64,000 nt of DNA from Rhodospirillaceae bacterium (GTDB lineage Bacteria; Pseudomonadota; Alphaproteobacteria; UBA6615), in contig JABIVD010000015.1 of assembly GCA_018667335.1 (NCBI GenBank), positions 1 to 64,000 of the forward strand. Reading direction: 5' to 3'. The translations under genes and the position numbers were made by a program. Positions 50,734 to 54,989 of the stretch are shown piece after piece; the stretch's first letter is position 1, and every line of letters starts with the position of its first letter. Below the pieces are notes generated by a model, which was not told the DNA's origin, made no database searches, and saw only the letters and a list, made by a program, of their open reading frames with translations.

Positions 50734-51434
50734 TGCTCGAGGTGCGCGGCATCGAGAGCTCCTATGGCGACAGCCAGGTGCTGTTCGGCATGGACTTCAC
50801 GGTTGGCACCGGCGAGGTCGCGACCCTGATGGGGCGCAACGGCATGGGCAAAACCACGACCGTGCGATCGATCATGGGGATCATGCAGCCCCATGGCGGC
50901 GAGATCCTCTTCGAGGGCACGCGGATCGACGGGCTGGCCTCCTACAAGGTTGCCCAGGCGGGCATCGGGCTGGTGCCCGAGGGGCGGCAGATATTCCCGA
51001 ATTTGTCCGTTCGCGAGAATCTGATCGCCACCGCGCGCAAGCGGCGCGGCGAGGGCGAGACCTGGACCTTCGACAAGGTGATCGACCTGTTTCCCGGTCT
51101 CGCACCCCGGCTGGAGAGCGCAGGAAACCAACTCTCGGGCGGTGAACAGCAGATGCTGGCGGTCGGCCGGGCGCTGATGACCAATCCGCAACTGCTGGTG
51201 CTGGACGAGGCCACGGAGGGCCTGGCGCCGCTGATCCGGACGGAGATCTGGTCCTGCCTCGCCGACCTCAAGACCGCGCGCCAGTCGATCCTGATCATCG
51301 ACAAGAATGTGGCGGCGCTGACCAAGATCGCCGACCGGCATCACATCGTCGAGAAGGGCCGGGTGGTCTGGAATGGCACGTCCGAACAGCTCCGCGCCGA
51401 CGCGGATTTGCAGGCGCGGTATCTGGGGGTCTGA
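50733..51434 (+). CDS. livF: LivF-type ABC transporter ATP-binding protein
   Basis: The 233-residue second ATPase has Walker A GRNGMGKTT, GRQIFPNLSVRENL (LivF-specific), the signature LSGGEQQMLAVGRAL and Walker B LLVLDEATEGLAP. Its ATG overlaps the livG stop by one base. It is the last gene of the transporter operon; no T-run terminator follows, and the composition drops sharply after its stop. Confidence 0.95.
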   Translation: MLEVRGIESSYGDSQVLFGMDFTVGTGEVATLMGRNGMGKTTTVRSIMGIMQPHGGEILFEGTRIDGLASYKVAQAGIGLVPEGRQIFPNLSVRENLIATARKRRGEGETWTFDKVIDLFPGLAPRLESAGNQLSGGEQQMLAVGRALMTNPQLLVLDEATEGLAPLIRTEIWSCLADLKTARQSILIIDKNVAALTKIADRHHIVEKGRVVWNGTSEQLRADADLQARYLGV

Positions 51435-51490
51435 GGTCATAATCTCAGTTTTTCAAGTATCGAAGCTATGCAGAACCAACAAGGTTTGAA

Positions 51491-51565
51491 TTGAACCTGG
51501 TTCGGGGCTCACTATATGTTTTCATTATGTTGTAATTTTACTGGGGTTATTGAACCTAATTCGGG
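51491..51565 (+). promoter_or_regulatory. Paired 16-base repeats in the promoter region of the kinase cassette
   Basis: TTGAACCTGGTTCGGG (51491-51506) recurs 59 bases later as TTGAACCTAATTCGGG (51550-51565), 14 of 16 bases the same; each contains a GAAC and TTC pair giving local dyad symmetry. A possible -10 (TATATG near 51513-51518) lies just after the first copy. The pair looks like a regulator's binding sites upstream of the first gene at 51601. Confidence 0.5.
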
Positions 51566-51600
51566 TTCGAATAGAAATTCGAGAATGAGGAGGAAATTCC

Positions 51601-52071
51601 TTGACCGAACGATGGGTGGGGCTCGTGATCTCTGGCGAGAAAGTGACTGTGGCGGATGCAGAAGTTCCTGATGACGGACCTCTGATCTTGCAGGCGGATT
51701 TGACTTGGAAACTTCAGACTGGAAGTAAGCCTGCCGCTTATTATGCGTTAAGCCAGTTGTGCTCGAACTATTTACGAGAGAATGGCATTGAAAAAGTAGT
51801 GATAAAAGCCAGTGCGACCAGTCAAAGCGGGGTGAGGTTGGGACATTTTCATAGCGCTGAACTGAGGGGGGTTATTCAGTCGGCGGCAGCTTCTGTATGT
51901 GAAGTGAAAGTGATTCCGAAAGCCGCGGTCAGCAAAAATTTTGGCGACCGAAAGGTGGATGAGTACATCAAAGATACTGGGTTTTGGGGCCAGGAGTTCA
52001 ATGGCAAACCGCTGCGTTCCGGGAGTAGAGAAGCTGCGATGTTGCTTCTTGCCGAGCGAAAGCAAGCATGA
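51601..52071 (+). CDS. RNase H/RuvC-like small protein of unknown function
   Basis: The 156-residue protein starts at TTG (51601) after AGGAGGAAATTCC. Its layout looks like an RNase H-type fold: a first strand pair (WVGLVISGEKVTVADAEV), a helix leading to strand 4 (NGIEKVVIKAS), then GHFHSAELRGVIQSAAA and a late LRSGSREAAMLLL helix. The usual acidic positions read Ser and Lys in the first strands, so it may be catalytically dead. I do not recognise a named family with certainty. It overlaps the kinase gene by four bases and is lower in GC than its surroundings. Confidence 0.55.
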   Translation: MTERWVGLVISGEKVTVADAEVPDDGPLILQADLTWKLQTGSKPAAYYALSQLCSNYLRENGIEKVVIKASATSQSGVRLGHFHSAELRGVIQSAAASVCEVKVIPKAAVSKNFGDRKVDEYIKDTGFWGQEFNGKPLRSGSREAAMLLLAERKQA

Positions 52072-53105
52072 CTGCTTTTGTTTCAGAAATTGTCGTCGGC
52101 AAAAAAATTGGTAGTGGCCACTTTGGAGATGTTCACTTGGCCACAGACCCGGTCCATGGAGAAGTCGCCGTAAAGATTATTTCTCAAGAACCAACAGAAT
52201 CTGATGGCGTATGGGGCCATAGGAAGGCTGGGTTTCTTGCCGAGGCCCAGAACCTTGCGTCGGCGGCACATGACAATATCGTTCCGGTCCATCACTTGGT
52301 GGAAAGTGTCGATGGGAAGAGTATTCAGTATTGCATGAAGTTTTGCTCGGGCGGCTCTCTTCATAGTCGCTATGAAGTGGGGCCACTTCCGCTAAGTGCG
52401 GTTCGCAAAGCAGGTGCGGAAGTCTTGCTCGGGCTTGATGCTCTGCATGCGAGAGGAATGATTCACCGTGATATCAAGCCGGGTAACATTCTCATTGATG
52501 AAAACGGTGTTGCGAGGATCGGGGATTTTGGTCTTGTTACAGACGACTTGATTTTCGGCTACGCCGATAGGGCGGGATATAGCGATCACCTTGCCTACGA
52601 AGTCTGGGCAGACGGTGTTACCAGTGTTCGATCAGATGTTTGGGCATTTGGTATGACTTTGTATCGCCTTTTGCATGGTCACTCTTGGTACAGCGAATCG
52701 GAACTACCTCGTTTGTCGATCCATGAAGGCGGATTTCGGGATCATCTTCTATGGTTGCCTCATGTTCCTCGGCGTTGGCGAAGAGCGATCCGCTCTATGA
52801 TGGTCGATGACCCTCACAAACGCCTTCAATCTGTCGGACAGGTACAACAGGTGATAGCTGGCTTGCCCATTGCTCCGGACTGGAGCTGTGAAGTGGCCGG
52901 GTCTTATGTCCGTTGGCGGCGAGAAAATGGCAAAAGAATCGTCAAGGTCGAATGGAATAGAATCTCGGCCAGACGTCATGAATGGAAGGCATGGAGCGAA
53001 CCAGCCGTCGCTGGTGCTGGAAATAACAGAAAACTGGGAGCGTCAGACGGGGTTGTCGGAGCACGACAAGCGATAGGGGACCTAGAAAGATTTTTTCTTT
53101 CCTGA
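52068..53105 (+). CDS. Soluble Ser/Thr protein kinase (Hanks-type)
   Basis: The 345-residue protein has a complete kinase catalytic domain (residues about 8-265): glycine loop GSGHFGDV, ATP lysine Lys36 in VAVKI, catalytic HRDIKPGN (Asp135, Asn140), and DFG (Asp153). The activation-segment end reads AYEVWADG where APE is usual, then DVWAFGMTLYRLL. There is no transmembrane segment or known sensor domain. A C-terminal tail of about 75 residues (WRRENGKRIVKVEWNR) may bind a partner. Its ATG overlaps the upstream gene as ATGA. Confidence 0.92.
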   Translation: MTAFVSEIVVGKKIGSGHFGDVHLATDPVHGEVAVKIISQEPTESDGVWGHRKAGFLAEAQNLASAAHDNIVPVHHLVESVDGKSIQYCMKFCSGGSLHSRYEVGPLPLSAVRKAGAEVLLGLDALHARGMIHRDIKPGNILIDENGVARIGDFGLVTDDLIFGYADRAGYSDHLAYEVWADGVTSVRSDVWAFGMTLYRLLHGHSWYSESELPRLSIHEGGFRDHLLWLPHVPRRWRRAIRSMMVDDPHKRLQSVGQVQQVIAGLPIAPDWSCEVAGSYVRWRRENGKRIVKVEWNRISARRHEWKAWSEPAVAGAGNNRKLGASDGVVGARQAIGDLERFFLS

Positions 53106-53109
53106 TCCG

Positions 53110-53322
53110 TTACTTGTGAACCGGAAAGATATACCGATTTACTCGATCTTTTCGCTCTACGGGCCGAGTTCCTAATACCTTGATGGCTTCAGCCCGACGT
53201 TCATTTCTACAAGAGAAACAATACGCTTGAGAAGCGACCGAGTTTACCTGCGGTTTCCAACGTTCACCGCAGTGCCTGCATGCTGGCAGCGAAAGTAAGT
53301 TTGATCTAGTTCTTCCCGCCAT
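53110..53322 (-). CDS. Small double-CxxC zinc-ribbon protein
   Basis: The 70-residue basic protein has two CxxC pairs (Cys15/18 in ACRHCGERW and Cys35/38 in YCFSCRN), spaced as a zinc ribbon, then an Arg/Lys-rich C-terminus, hinting at nucleic-acid binding. No family is recognised. The start at 53322 follows GGGAGAAACGCTC; the upstream ATG at 53358 lies above the -10 element, so it would not be on the transcript. It is convergent with the kinase gene, with four bases between stops. Confidence 0.65.
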   Translation of the reverse strand: MAGRTRSNLLSLPACRHCGERWKPQVNSVASQAYCFSCRNERRAEAIKVLGTRPVERKDRVNRYIFPVHK

Positions 53323-53341
53323 GAGCGTTTCTCCCAAAACG

Positions 53342-53371
53342 GAACATACAGGGAACATAGATTCACGTCAA
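53342..53371 (-). promoter_or_regulatory. LexA-box promoter (SOS-type) of the zinc-ribbon gene
   Basis: Reading the minus strand, TTGACG (complement of 53366-53371) is followed after exactly 17 bases by TATGTT (53343-53348). The sequence GTTC-CCTGTAT-GTTC (complement of 53342-53356), the alphaproteobacterial LexA site GTTC-N7-GTTC, covers the spacer end and the -10. The initiation point would be about 53336, followed by GGGAG and the ATG at 53322. A LexA-repressed promoter fits all three elements. Confidence 0.75.
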
Positions 53372-53417
53372 ATGTCGTGCGGCGCGCCATTCATTGGGCA
53401 GTTCGTGTTCAAGACAT

Positions 53418-54989
53418 CTACCCCCGCAGCTTGAACCGCTGAATCTTGCCCGTCGCCGTCTTCGGCAGCTCGTCCACGAAATGCACCCAGCGGGGATATT
53501 TGTAGCGGGCGAGCTCTTCCTGGCAGAAGGTCTTGAGCGCCTCTGCCAGTTCGTCGGAGGCGTCGTCGCTATTCTTCAAGATGATGAAGGCCTCGGGCTT
53601 GATCAGCTCCTCGTCGTCCGGGCGGCCGATCACTGCGGCTTCGAGCACTGCGTCGTGGGACACCAGCCGCGCCTCGATCTCGACGGGTGAGACCCAGATG
53701 CCGCCGACCTTGAGCATGTCGTCGCTGCGCCCGCAGCAGGTGAAGTAGCCGTCGTCGTCCTGAAAATAGGAATCGCCGGTGCGGATCCACCCGTCGGTGA
53801 TGGCGGCGGCCGTGCGTTCGGGCTGGTTCCAGTAGCGCGAGGTGACCGACCCGCCGCGGATCAACAAATTGCCAATCTCGCCGGTCGCAACGGCTTGGTC
53901 GTTATCATCGACGATCCGCGCCTCGTAGCCGGGTACCAGCTTGCCGCTGGTGCCGGGTTTTGCATCGTCGGGGCGGTTGCCGATGAAGATGTGCAGAATT
54001 TCGGTGGTGCCGATCCCGTCCAGGATGGTGAGCCCGGTATGTTCGCGCCAGCGCGCGAACAGGCTGGCCGGCAGGGGCTCGCCCGCAGACACGCACACCC
54101 GCAGGCTCGAGAAATCCGCGCCCTTGCTCTCCAGTGCATGGAGCTGGGCGGCAAACAAGGTCGGCACGGCATAGTAGTGAGTGGGGCGGTAGCGTTCGAT
54201 GTGGTCGGCCATGATGTCGGGAGTCGGCCGACCGGCGAATAGCACCGACTGGCCGCCCGTCCAGAGCGGCAGGGTCATCGCGTTGCCGAGCCCGTAGGCG
54301 AAGAACAGCTTCGCGGCAGAAAAATGAATGTCGTCGGCCGTGATGCCGAGGGTCTCGACCCCGTAATACTGACTGGTCACCACCATGTCCCGGTGGGCGT
54401 GGACCGCGCCCTTGGGGGTGCCGGTGGAGCCAGACGTGTAGAGCCAGAAGCAATCGTCTTCGGCGGTGGCGGGTGCTGCCTCGAGGTCGGGCTCGGCCGA
54501 TGCCATGCGAGCAGCGAAGCTGCCATCCTCTCCCTCTGTCGGGAAATGATGCGCGGGATCGGCACCGGCCAGCGCCGGTCCCATCTCGGCGGCGTATTCC
54601 GGCGACCAGATGGAACACGCGGCACCGGAATCCTCGATGATGAACTGCAGGTCCTTGGCGCGTAGCAGCGTGTTCACGGGTACGGGCACGAAGCCGGCCT
54701 TGATGGCACCCCAGAAGGCGAAGAAGAAGGCCGGGCAATCCTTGATTGCCAGGATCACCCGGTCGCCGGGTGCGAGACCCAGGTCCATGAGCGCGTTACC
54801 CGCGCGATTCACCGCCGTGGCGAGCTGGGCGTAGGTCGTGTCGCCGTCATCGTCCCGGATGGCGATCTTGTCGCCGCGGCCCTCGTCGAGATGTCGGTCG
54901 ATGAAGGGGACGGCCACGTTGAAGCGGTCCGCGAATGCGAGCTTCGCGGGGCTGTTGGACGTATCGACGATAACGGTGTTTGCGGTCAT
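53418..54989 (-). CDS. bclA: Benzoate-CoA ligase
   Basis: The 523-residue AMP-forming ligase has YTSGSTGTPKGAVHAH (residues about 184-199), SAGEPLPASLFARW, DGIGTTEILHIFIGNRP (distinctive for benzoate-type CoA ligases), GWIRTGDSYFQDDDG and the catalytic lysine in TATGKIQRFKL. It makes benzoyl-CoA, the substrate for BoxAB. It is the last gene of the boxC-boxB-bclA unit, 11 bases after boxB. A start upstream of 54989 is possible but would extend past boxB. Confidence 0.92.
   Translation of the reverse strand: MTANTVIVDTSNSPAKLAFADRFNVAVPFIDRHLDEGRGDKIAIRDDDGDTTYAQLATAVNRAGNALMDLGLAPGDRVILAIKDCPAFFFAFWGAIKAGFVPVPVNTLLRAKDLQFIIEDSGAACSIWSPEYAAEMGPALAGADPAHHFPTEGEDGSFAARMASAEPDLEAAPATAEDDCFWLYTSGSTGTPKGAVHAHRDMVVTSQYYGVETLGITADDIHFSAAKLFFAYGLGNAMTLPLWTGGQSVLFAGRPTPDIMADHIERYRPTHYYAVPTLFAAQLHALESKGADFSSLRVCVSAGEPLPASLFARWREHTGLTILDGIGTTEILHIFIGNRPDDAKPGTSGKLVPGYEARIVDDNDQAVATGEIGNLLIRGGSVTSRYWNQPERTAAAITDGWIRTGDSYFQDDDGYFTCCGRSDDMLKVGGIWVSPVEIEARLVSHDAVLEAAVIGRPDDEELIKPEAFIILKNSDDASDELAEALKTFCQEELARYKYPRWVHFVDELPKTATGKIQRFKLRG

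Follow-up and report, generated by a model that had tools for sequence, protein, structure and literature searches.

Sequence evidence for an SOS-linked zinc-ribbon gene in a mobile three-gene kinase module

The window, by which we mean the whole stretch of 64,000 nucleotides analysed from contig JABIVD010000015.1 of a Rhodospirillaceae bacterium (GCA_018667335.1), carries between livF and bclA an insert of 1.98 kb that holds exactly three genes (Table 1). Its GC content is about 0.50, against 0.65 in the surroundings; in the sister genome G021 (locus L135) livF and bclA are adjacent with overlapping stops, and in G020 and G018 about 110-150 bases lie between them. Judged by these comparisons, the insert is a foreign, clean insertion. 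The first gene encodes a RuvC-fold protein (here P1), the second a Ser/Thr protein kinase and the third, on the opposite strand, a small protein with two CxxC motifs (here ZnR). A first-pass annotation had described a TTGACG-N17-TATGTT promoter overlapped by GTTC-N7-GTTC, leading after a good ribosome site to a small double-CxxC protein convergent with a kinase pair, with four bases between the stops; promoter, box, ribosome site, reading frame and tail-to-tail spacing are all present as described, but the 'pair' contains one kinase only, gene 1 being of RuvC fold. The ORF listed for ZnR, of 82 aa, starts further upstream, inside the promoter, and homologues favour the 70-aa start.

Table 1. 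Coordinates of the module and its putative control elements in the window
Feature	Position	Strand	Basis
Insert of 1.98 kb between livF and bclA, three genes	51435..53417	.	Sister genomes, GC
P1, 156-aa RuvC-fold protein, predicted catalytically dead	51601..52071	+	AF2, Foldseek, residue counts
Ser/Thr protein kinase, 345 aa, start overlaps P1 stop (ATGA)	52068..53105	+	Pfam Pkinase 5e-37
Kinase stop	53103-53105	+	Sequence
ZnR, 70 aa, C15-x2-C18 ... C35-x2-C38, module gene three	53110..53322	-	ORF and homologue alignment
ZnR start (ATG) and stop	53322; 53112-53110	-	Sequence
Shine-Dalgarno GGGAGA	53330..53335	-	Sequence
Sigma-70-like promoter TTGACG (53371-53366) N17 TATGTT (53348-53343)	53343..53371	-	Sequence
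LexA-type box GTTCCCTGTATGTTC, overlaps -10	53342..53356	-	Motif; same at lexA/recA/comM/imuA; kept before homologues

The P1 protein of the window has no Pfam match, and 7 of 44 members of its family weakly match DUF3010 (PF11215, best 8e-4), a domain grouped with the RNase H-like superfamily, close to the resolvases (PMC3985635). The AF2 model of P1 is confident (pLDDT 93.6) and superimposes on RuvC (Foldseek E 2.8e-9; Z 17.5, rmsd 2.4 over 146 residues). However, the position of the first-strand aspartate (RuvC D7) is hydrophobic and is acidic in none of 42 members, and that of the catalytic Glu66 is occupied, in the hhalign alignment, by a near-invariant lysine, Lys68 (40/42). Hence, of the two marks of a RuvC resolvase, P1 meets the fold but not the catalytic acids, and the loss of the D7 and E66 equivalents rules it out as a resolvase. 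Alignment and model together strongly support the prediction that P1 has a RuvC fold and has lost the active site; it differs from the resolvases also in being paired with a kinase. A search with P1 alone returned one weak plasmid match and none in viral contigs. Two similar dyads, TTGAACCTGGTTCGGG (window 51491-51506) and TTGAACCTAATTCGGG (51550-51565), flank an AT-rich stretch before P1 and resemble an operator that would serve P1 and the kinase; the relatives inspected contain no obvious copy of them.

The kinase meets the criteria for a canonical Hanks-type enzyme (G-loop, VAxK, HRDxKxxN and DFG). Each motif was matched by regular expression in 48 to 52 of 52 family members, and the misses, on inspection, were mostly variants outside what the expression allowed. 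Its top PADLOC matches are mad6 (3.7e-51) and PD-T4-6 (4.4e-37), which along with PglW of BREX have a Hanks-type kinase domain in common with it. Neither system accounts for the module: the score of 81.8 bits lies far under the NCBIfam cut-off of 460 for the MAD6 kinase of MADS, the gene content differs, and neither P1 nor ZnR has a PADLOC match; PD-T4-6 is a stand-alone single-gene system, whereas the present family of kinases sits throughout in a three-gene module. In ZnR, C15, C18, C35, C38 and R42 are invariant among 48 aligned homologues. The protein gave nothing firm in Pfam, NCBIfam, PHROGs or PADLOC, including any toxin fold or family; AF2 modelled it poorly (pLDDT 73, pTM 0.44), and a fold search with that model yielded nothing significant. 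Compared with the sequences of solved structures, both ZnR and P1 produced weak matches only.

Searches with ZnR alone recovered no relatives from genome contigs, viral contigs or plasmids, and its relatives were found only beside the kinase, with the C-terminal half of the kinase as query. The first relative came from a Sinorhizobium meliloti plasmid that has genes for P1, for the kinase and, convergent with the latter, for a CxxC protein of 70 aa, and the kinase query retrieved 49 genome loci and five loci from viral collections. ZnR adjoins the kinase in 53 of the 55 retrieved loci, which span several phyla, so that its assignment to the kinase system by the first-pass annotation is supported. 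In 51 of these loci the two genes are convergent, with a gap of -29 to +74, the commonest arrangement (about half of the loci) being a 4-nt overlap of the stops; in the other two (L087 and L090) they are codirectional. The loci without ZnR are one whose contig ends soon after the kinase (L102) and one with a truncated kinase (L108), and the gene was present beside every intact kinase whose downstream sequence was long enough to show it. At one locus (L077) the kinase is intact, and ZnR lacks one of the cysteine positions and its box is missing. Where the contig extends far enough, P1 almost always precedes the kinase. The 55 loci do not represent fully independent events, because a few from the viral collections repeat genome loci. 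Within this limit, the comparison strongly supports ZnR as the constant third member of the module and the three genes as moving as a unit. On S. meliloti pHRB800 (L005 5272-6105), ISRm4-1 cuts the P1 homologue, and the kinase and zinc-ribbon genes stay open. On Novosphingobium plasmid pHR1a (L008 759-8374), a distant P1-kinase pair without ZnR is set into a type I restriction operon, with hsdS on one side and hsdR on the other.

Taken alone, the control elements at the window locus carry little weight. The promoter is the sole sigma-70-like site within 51400-53500, but the hexamers are not significant in themselves because shuffled sequences average 2.0 such sites; likewise, the box by itself is weak evidence, since GTTC-N7-GTTC occurs four times in the window against 1.74 expected from shuffles, and 120 times in the genome. 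It is the comparative data, namely the genome's own SOS promoters, the promoters of homologues and the lexA genes of the hosts, that make the box significant. The genome encodes one LexA, with GTTCTAGTGATGTTC upstream of its gene (G000:C11:105418), and boxes of the same form precede recA and comM (GTTCTTTTTTTGTTC), imuA (GTTCTTATTTTGTTC) and a yedK-type SRAP gene (GTTCCTGTCTTGTTC), these gene names being read from translated starts. The window box agrees with them in its GTTC halves and in having a T ahead of the second one, but its N7 core, scored alone against the strongest LexA sites of the genome, ranks only 15th of 97 distinct boxes. Membership of the LexA regulon, as far as it can be judged from a lineage-correct box at the promoter and the same box at the organism's own lexA, is thus met on both counts.

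The first-pass annotation had proposed looking for the same box upstream of homologues and had held that its absence there would refute the idea; the outcome was favourable. The promoters of alphaproteobacterial ZnR genes contain an exact GTTC-N7-GTTC, on either strand, in 16 of 29 cases and one with at most one mismatch in 28 of 29, while shuffles gave on average 0.2 (maximum 2) and 4.5 (maximum 10), respectively. Beta- and gammaproteobacterial loci, together with that of one Acidobacteriota MAG, have instead CTG-N10-CAG with an AT-rich core (13/15; shuffle maximum 1), and the remaining two have a site of this type further upstream. There was no cross-over of box types between the two groups, which agrees with the lineage-specific LexA motifs known for them (PMC3323433), and the lexA promoters of all 12 proteobacterial module hosts tested (eight alpha, four beta/gamma) are of the corresponding type. 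The shuffles serve as a yardstick and provide no formal probability, because related sequences share ancestry. Beta/gamma modules are nested among alpha modules in the tree built from the kinases, and it therefore appears that the box has been re-made, with a change of type, after transfer. In contrast to ZnR, the regions upstream of P1 have an exact LexA box in only 1 of 20 alpha and 0 of 15 beta/gamma loci, not beyond chance, and none was found upstream of the operon at the two loci with codirectional ZnR (L087, L090). A LexA-type operator on the ZnR promoter, with no LexA box upstream of P1 and the kinase, is therefore strongly supported as a prediction. That ZnR is both a member of the module and controlled by LexA we consider very probable, in the absence of binding or induction data.

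The box is not uniform among relatives. A mostly sphingomonad set of loci (L064-L068, L071, L072, L075 and L076) has a common variant, ATTCAYGWTTTGTTC, one mismatch from the consensus, which takes the form GTTCATGTTTTGTTT in L065. The variant may be a weaker site, because the lexA promoters of the two hosts tested that carry it, Citromicrobium and Limobrevibacterium, have the full GTTC-N7-GTTC. At a Chloroflexi locus (L088), ZnR is preceded by a Gram-positive-type GAACATTTGTTC; this locus was left out of the tally because, as far as the sequence examined extends, the lexA promoter of its own host has no exact copy.

Many relatives of the module lie among defence genes, a setting that they share with the kinases of known defence systems. 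Among 110 ORFs flanking them, the recurring PADLOC families are capP (4), dCTPase (3), ShosA/PsyrA (3), RmrA (3) and mad3 (2), with single matches to RT-Toprim, type IIG, Qat, Lamassu and HEC-05. None of the families listed for a control set of 110 ORFs was matched more than once, and these were mostly methyltransferases. We offer this as a tally and not as a test, because PADLOC families overlap in what they match. In a Rhizobium-type clade the module adjoins a DprA and phosphoribosyltransferase pair in five of six loci, suggesting that this neighbourhood is a larger composite system. The pair (L005 3091-4980; L104-L107) is ShosTA/PsyrTA-like.

Our current working hypothesis, to which we assign a probability of roughly 0.5, is that ZnR is the SOS-controlled component of a compact conflict module of three genes, spread horizontally, and acts to restrain P1 and the kinase. 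P1, whose RuvC fold is one that binds branched DNA, might, as inferred from that fold, recognize an abnormal DNA structure and switch on the kinase, which would then stop growth of the invaded cell. Damage to the host's own DNA would lead, through RecA-driven cleavage of LexA, to the release of ZnR, which would bind P1 or the kinase, a contact for which there are no data, and hold the pair back, so that repair intermediates arising in the host itself would not set it off. Head-on transcription of ZnR into the 3' end of the kinase gene would simultaneously reduce expression of the kinase; such antisense interference is possible, in that the geometry allows it and the arrangement is conserved, and there are no transcript data. 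We prefer restraint because the near-universal convergent overlap sets expression of ZnR against that of the kinase, yet the sign of the effect is inferred, toxicity of the kinase being likewise without data, and we put it at an even chance at best. Loci L087 and L090, with codirectional ZnR and no LexA box found before the operon, and L077, which has lost a cysteine position and the box, fit restraint less well. Phage infection itself can induce SOS, and an SOS-induced restraint could for that reason weaken defence. The fuller picture, of a mobile conflict system whose kinase is driven by a nuclease-dead, resolvase-like sensor and gated by a convergent, SOS-repressed ZnR, with LexA control re-evolved in each new host lineage, remains tentative, at somewhat less than an even chance.

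The opposite sign is also conceivable. P1 and the kinase may always be made and act only once damage, here meaning phage attack or prophage induction, supplies ZnR as an activator, adaptor or effector. Strict co-occurrence and damage-type control would fit such an arming subunit, ZnR stands codirectionally behind the kinase in L087 and L090, and some of the systems that adjoin the module (ShosTA; PMC10732053) may be responsive to replication-associated DNA-protein structures. In the conserved convergent overlap, however, transcription of ZnR would hinder the very kinase that it should help, and we regard activation as doubtful. In some toxin-antitoxin pairs a small gene under LexA control is countered by a partner expressed constitutively, and a toxin neutralized by a kinase has a precedent in TakA/TglT. 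ZnR could by analogy be an SOS-induced toxin, although there are no data on its toxicity, with the kinase and P1 as antitoxin, as the retention of the kinase motifs and the presence of ZnR beside every intact kinase with enough downstream sequence would allow; but ZnR matches no toxin fold or family, and a 345-aa kinase with a RuvC-like protein would make an elaborate antitoxin, so that this seems improbable. That the box is there by chance, beside an unrelated small gene, gains something from the excess of GTTC-N7-GTTC matches in the window but is contradicted both by the adjacency of ZnR and kinase across phyla and by lineage-matched boxes far above the shuffles, and can practically be dismissed.

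Among the closest known systems are SOS-controlled toxin-antitoxin modules such as TisB/IstR and SymE/SymR. In these, as here, a small LexA-controlled gene is opposed to a partner outside SOS control with antisense overlap, but the partner is an antisense RNA and not a kinase operon, and ZnR has no demonstrated toxicity. No description of the module was found in the literature, preprints and most subscription papers being outside the scope of the search, and we conclude from the sequence comparisons that P1, the kinase and ZnR form an apparently undescribed SOS-linked three-gene module. Kinase-bearing modules among defence genes are known; the SOS-linked third gene seems to be unreported. Missed by ordinary domain scans, this gene would connect the DNA-damage response with a kinase module that occurs among defence genes, and a host-specific LexA box repeatedly re-created on a single gene of such a mobile unit would make selection for SOS control readable from sequence. 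Should ZnR gate the kinase, it would offer a way to study how systems of this kind are kept from responding to the host's repair intermediates. Like genes of the LexA regulon, ZnR has a promoter-overlapping, lineage-specific box (PMC3323433), although that regulon has DNA repair at its core and ZnR belongs to a mobile module. Elsewhere in the window's genome, LexA-type boxes also lie about 180 bases before an apparent mraZ at the start of a division cluster (GTTCTTGTAATGTTC; L027 1501-1515) and about 160 bases before a dnaA-like ORF (GTTCGTTCGCTGTTC; L052 1421-1435).
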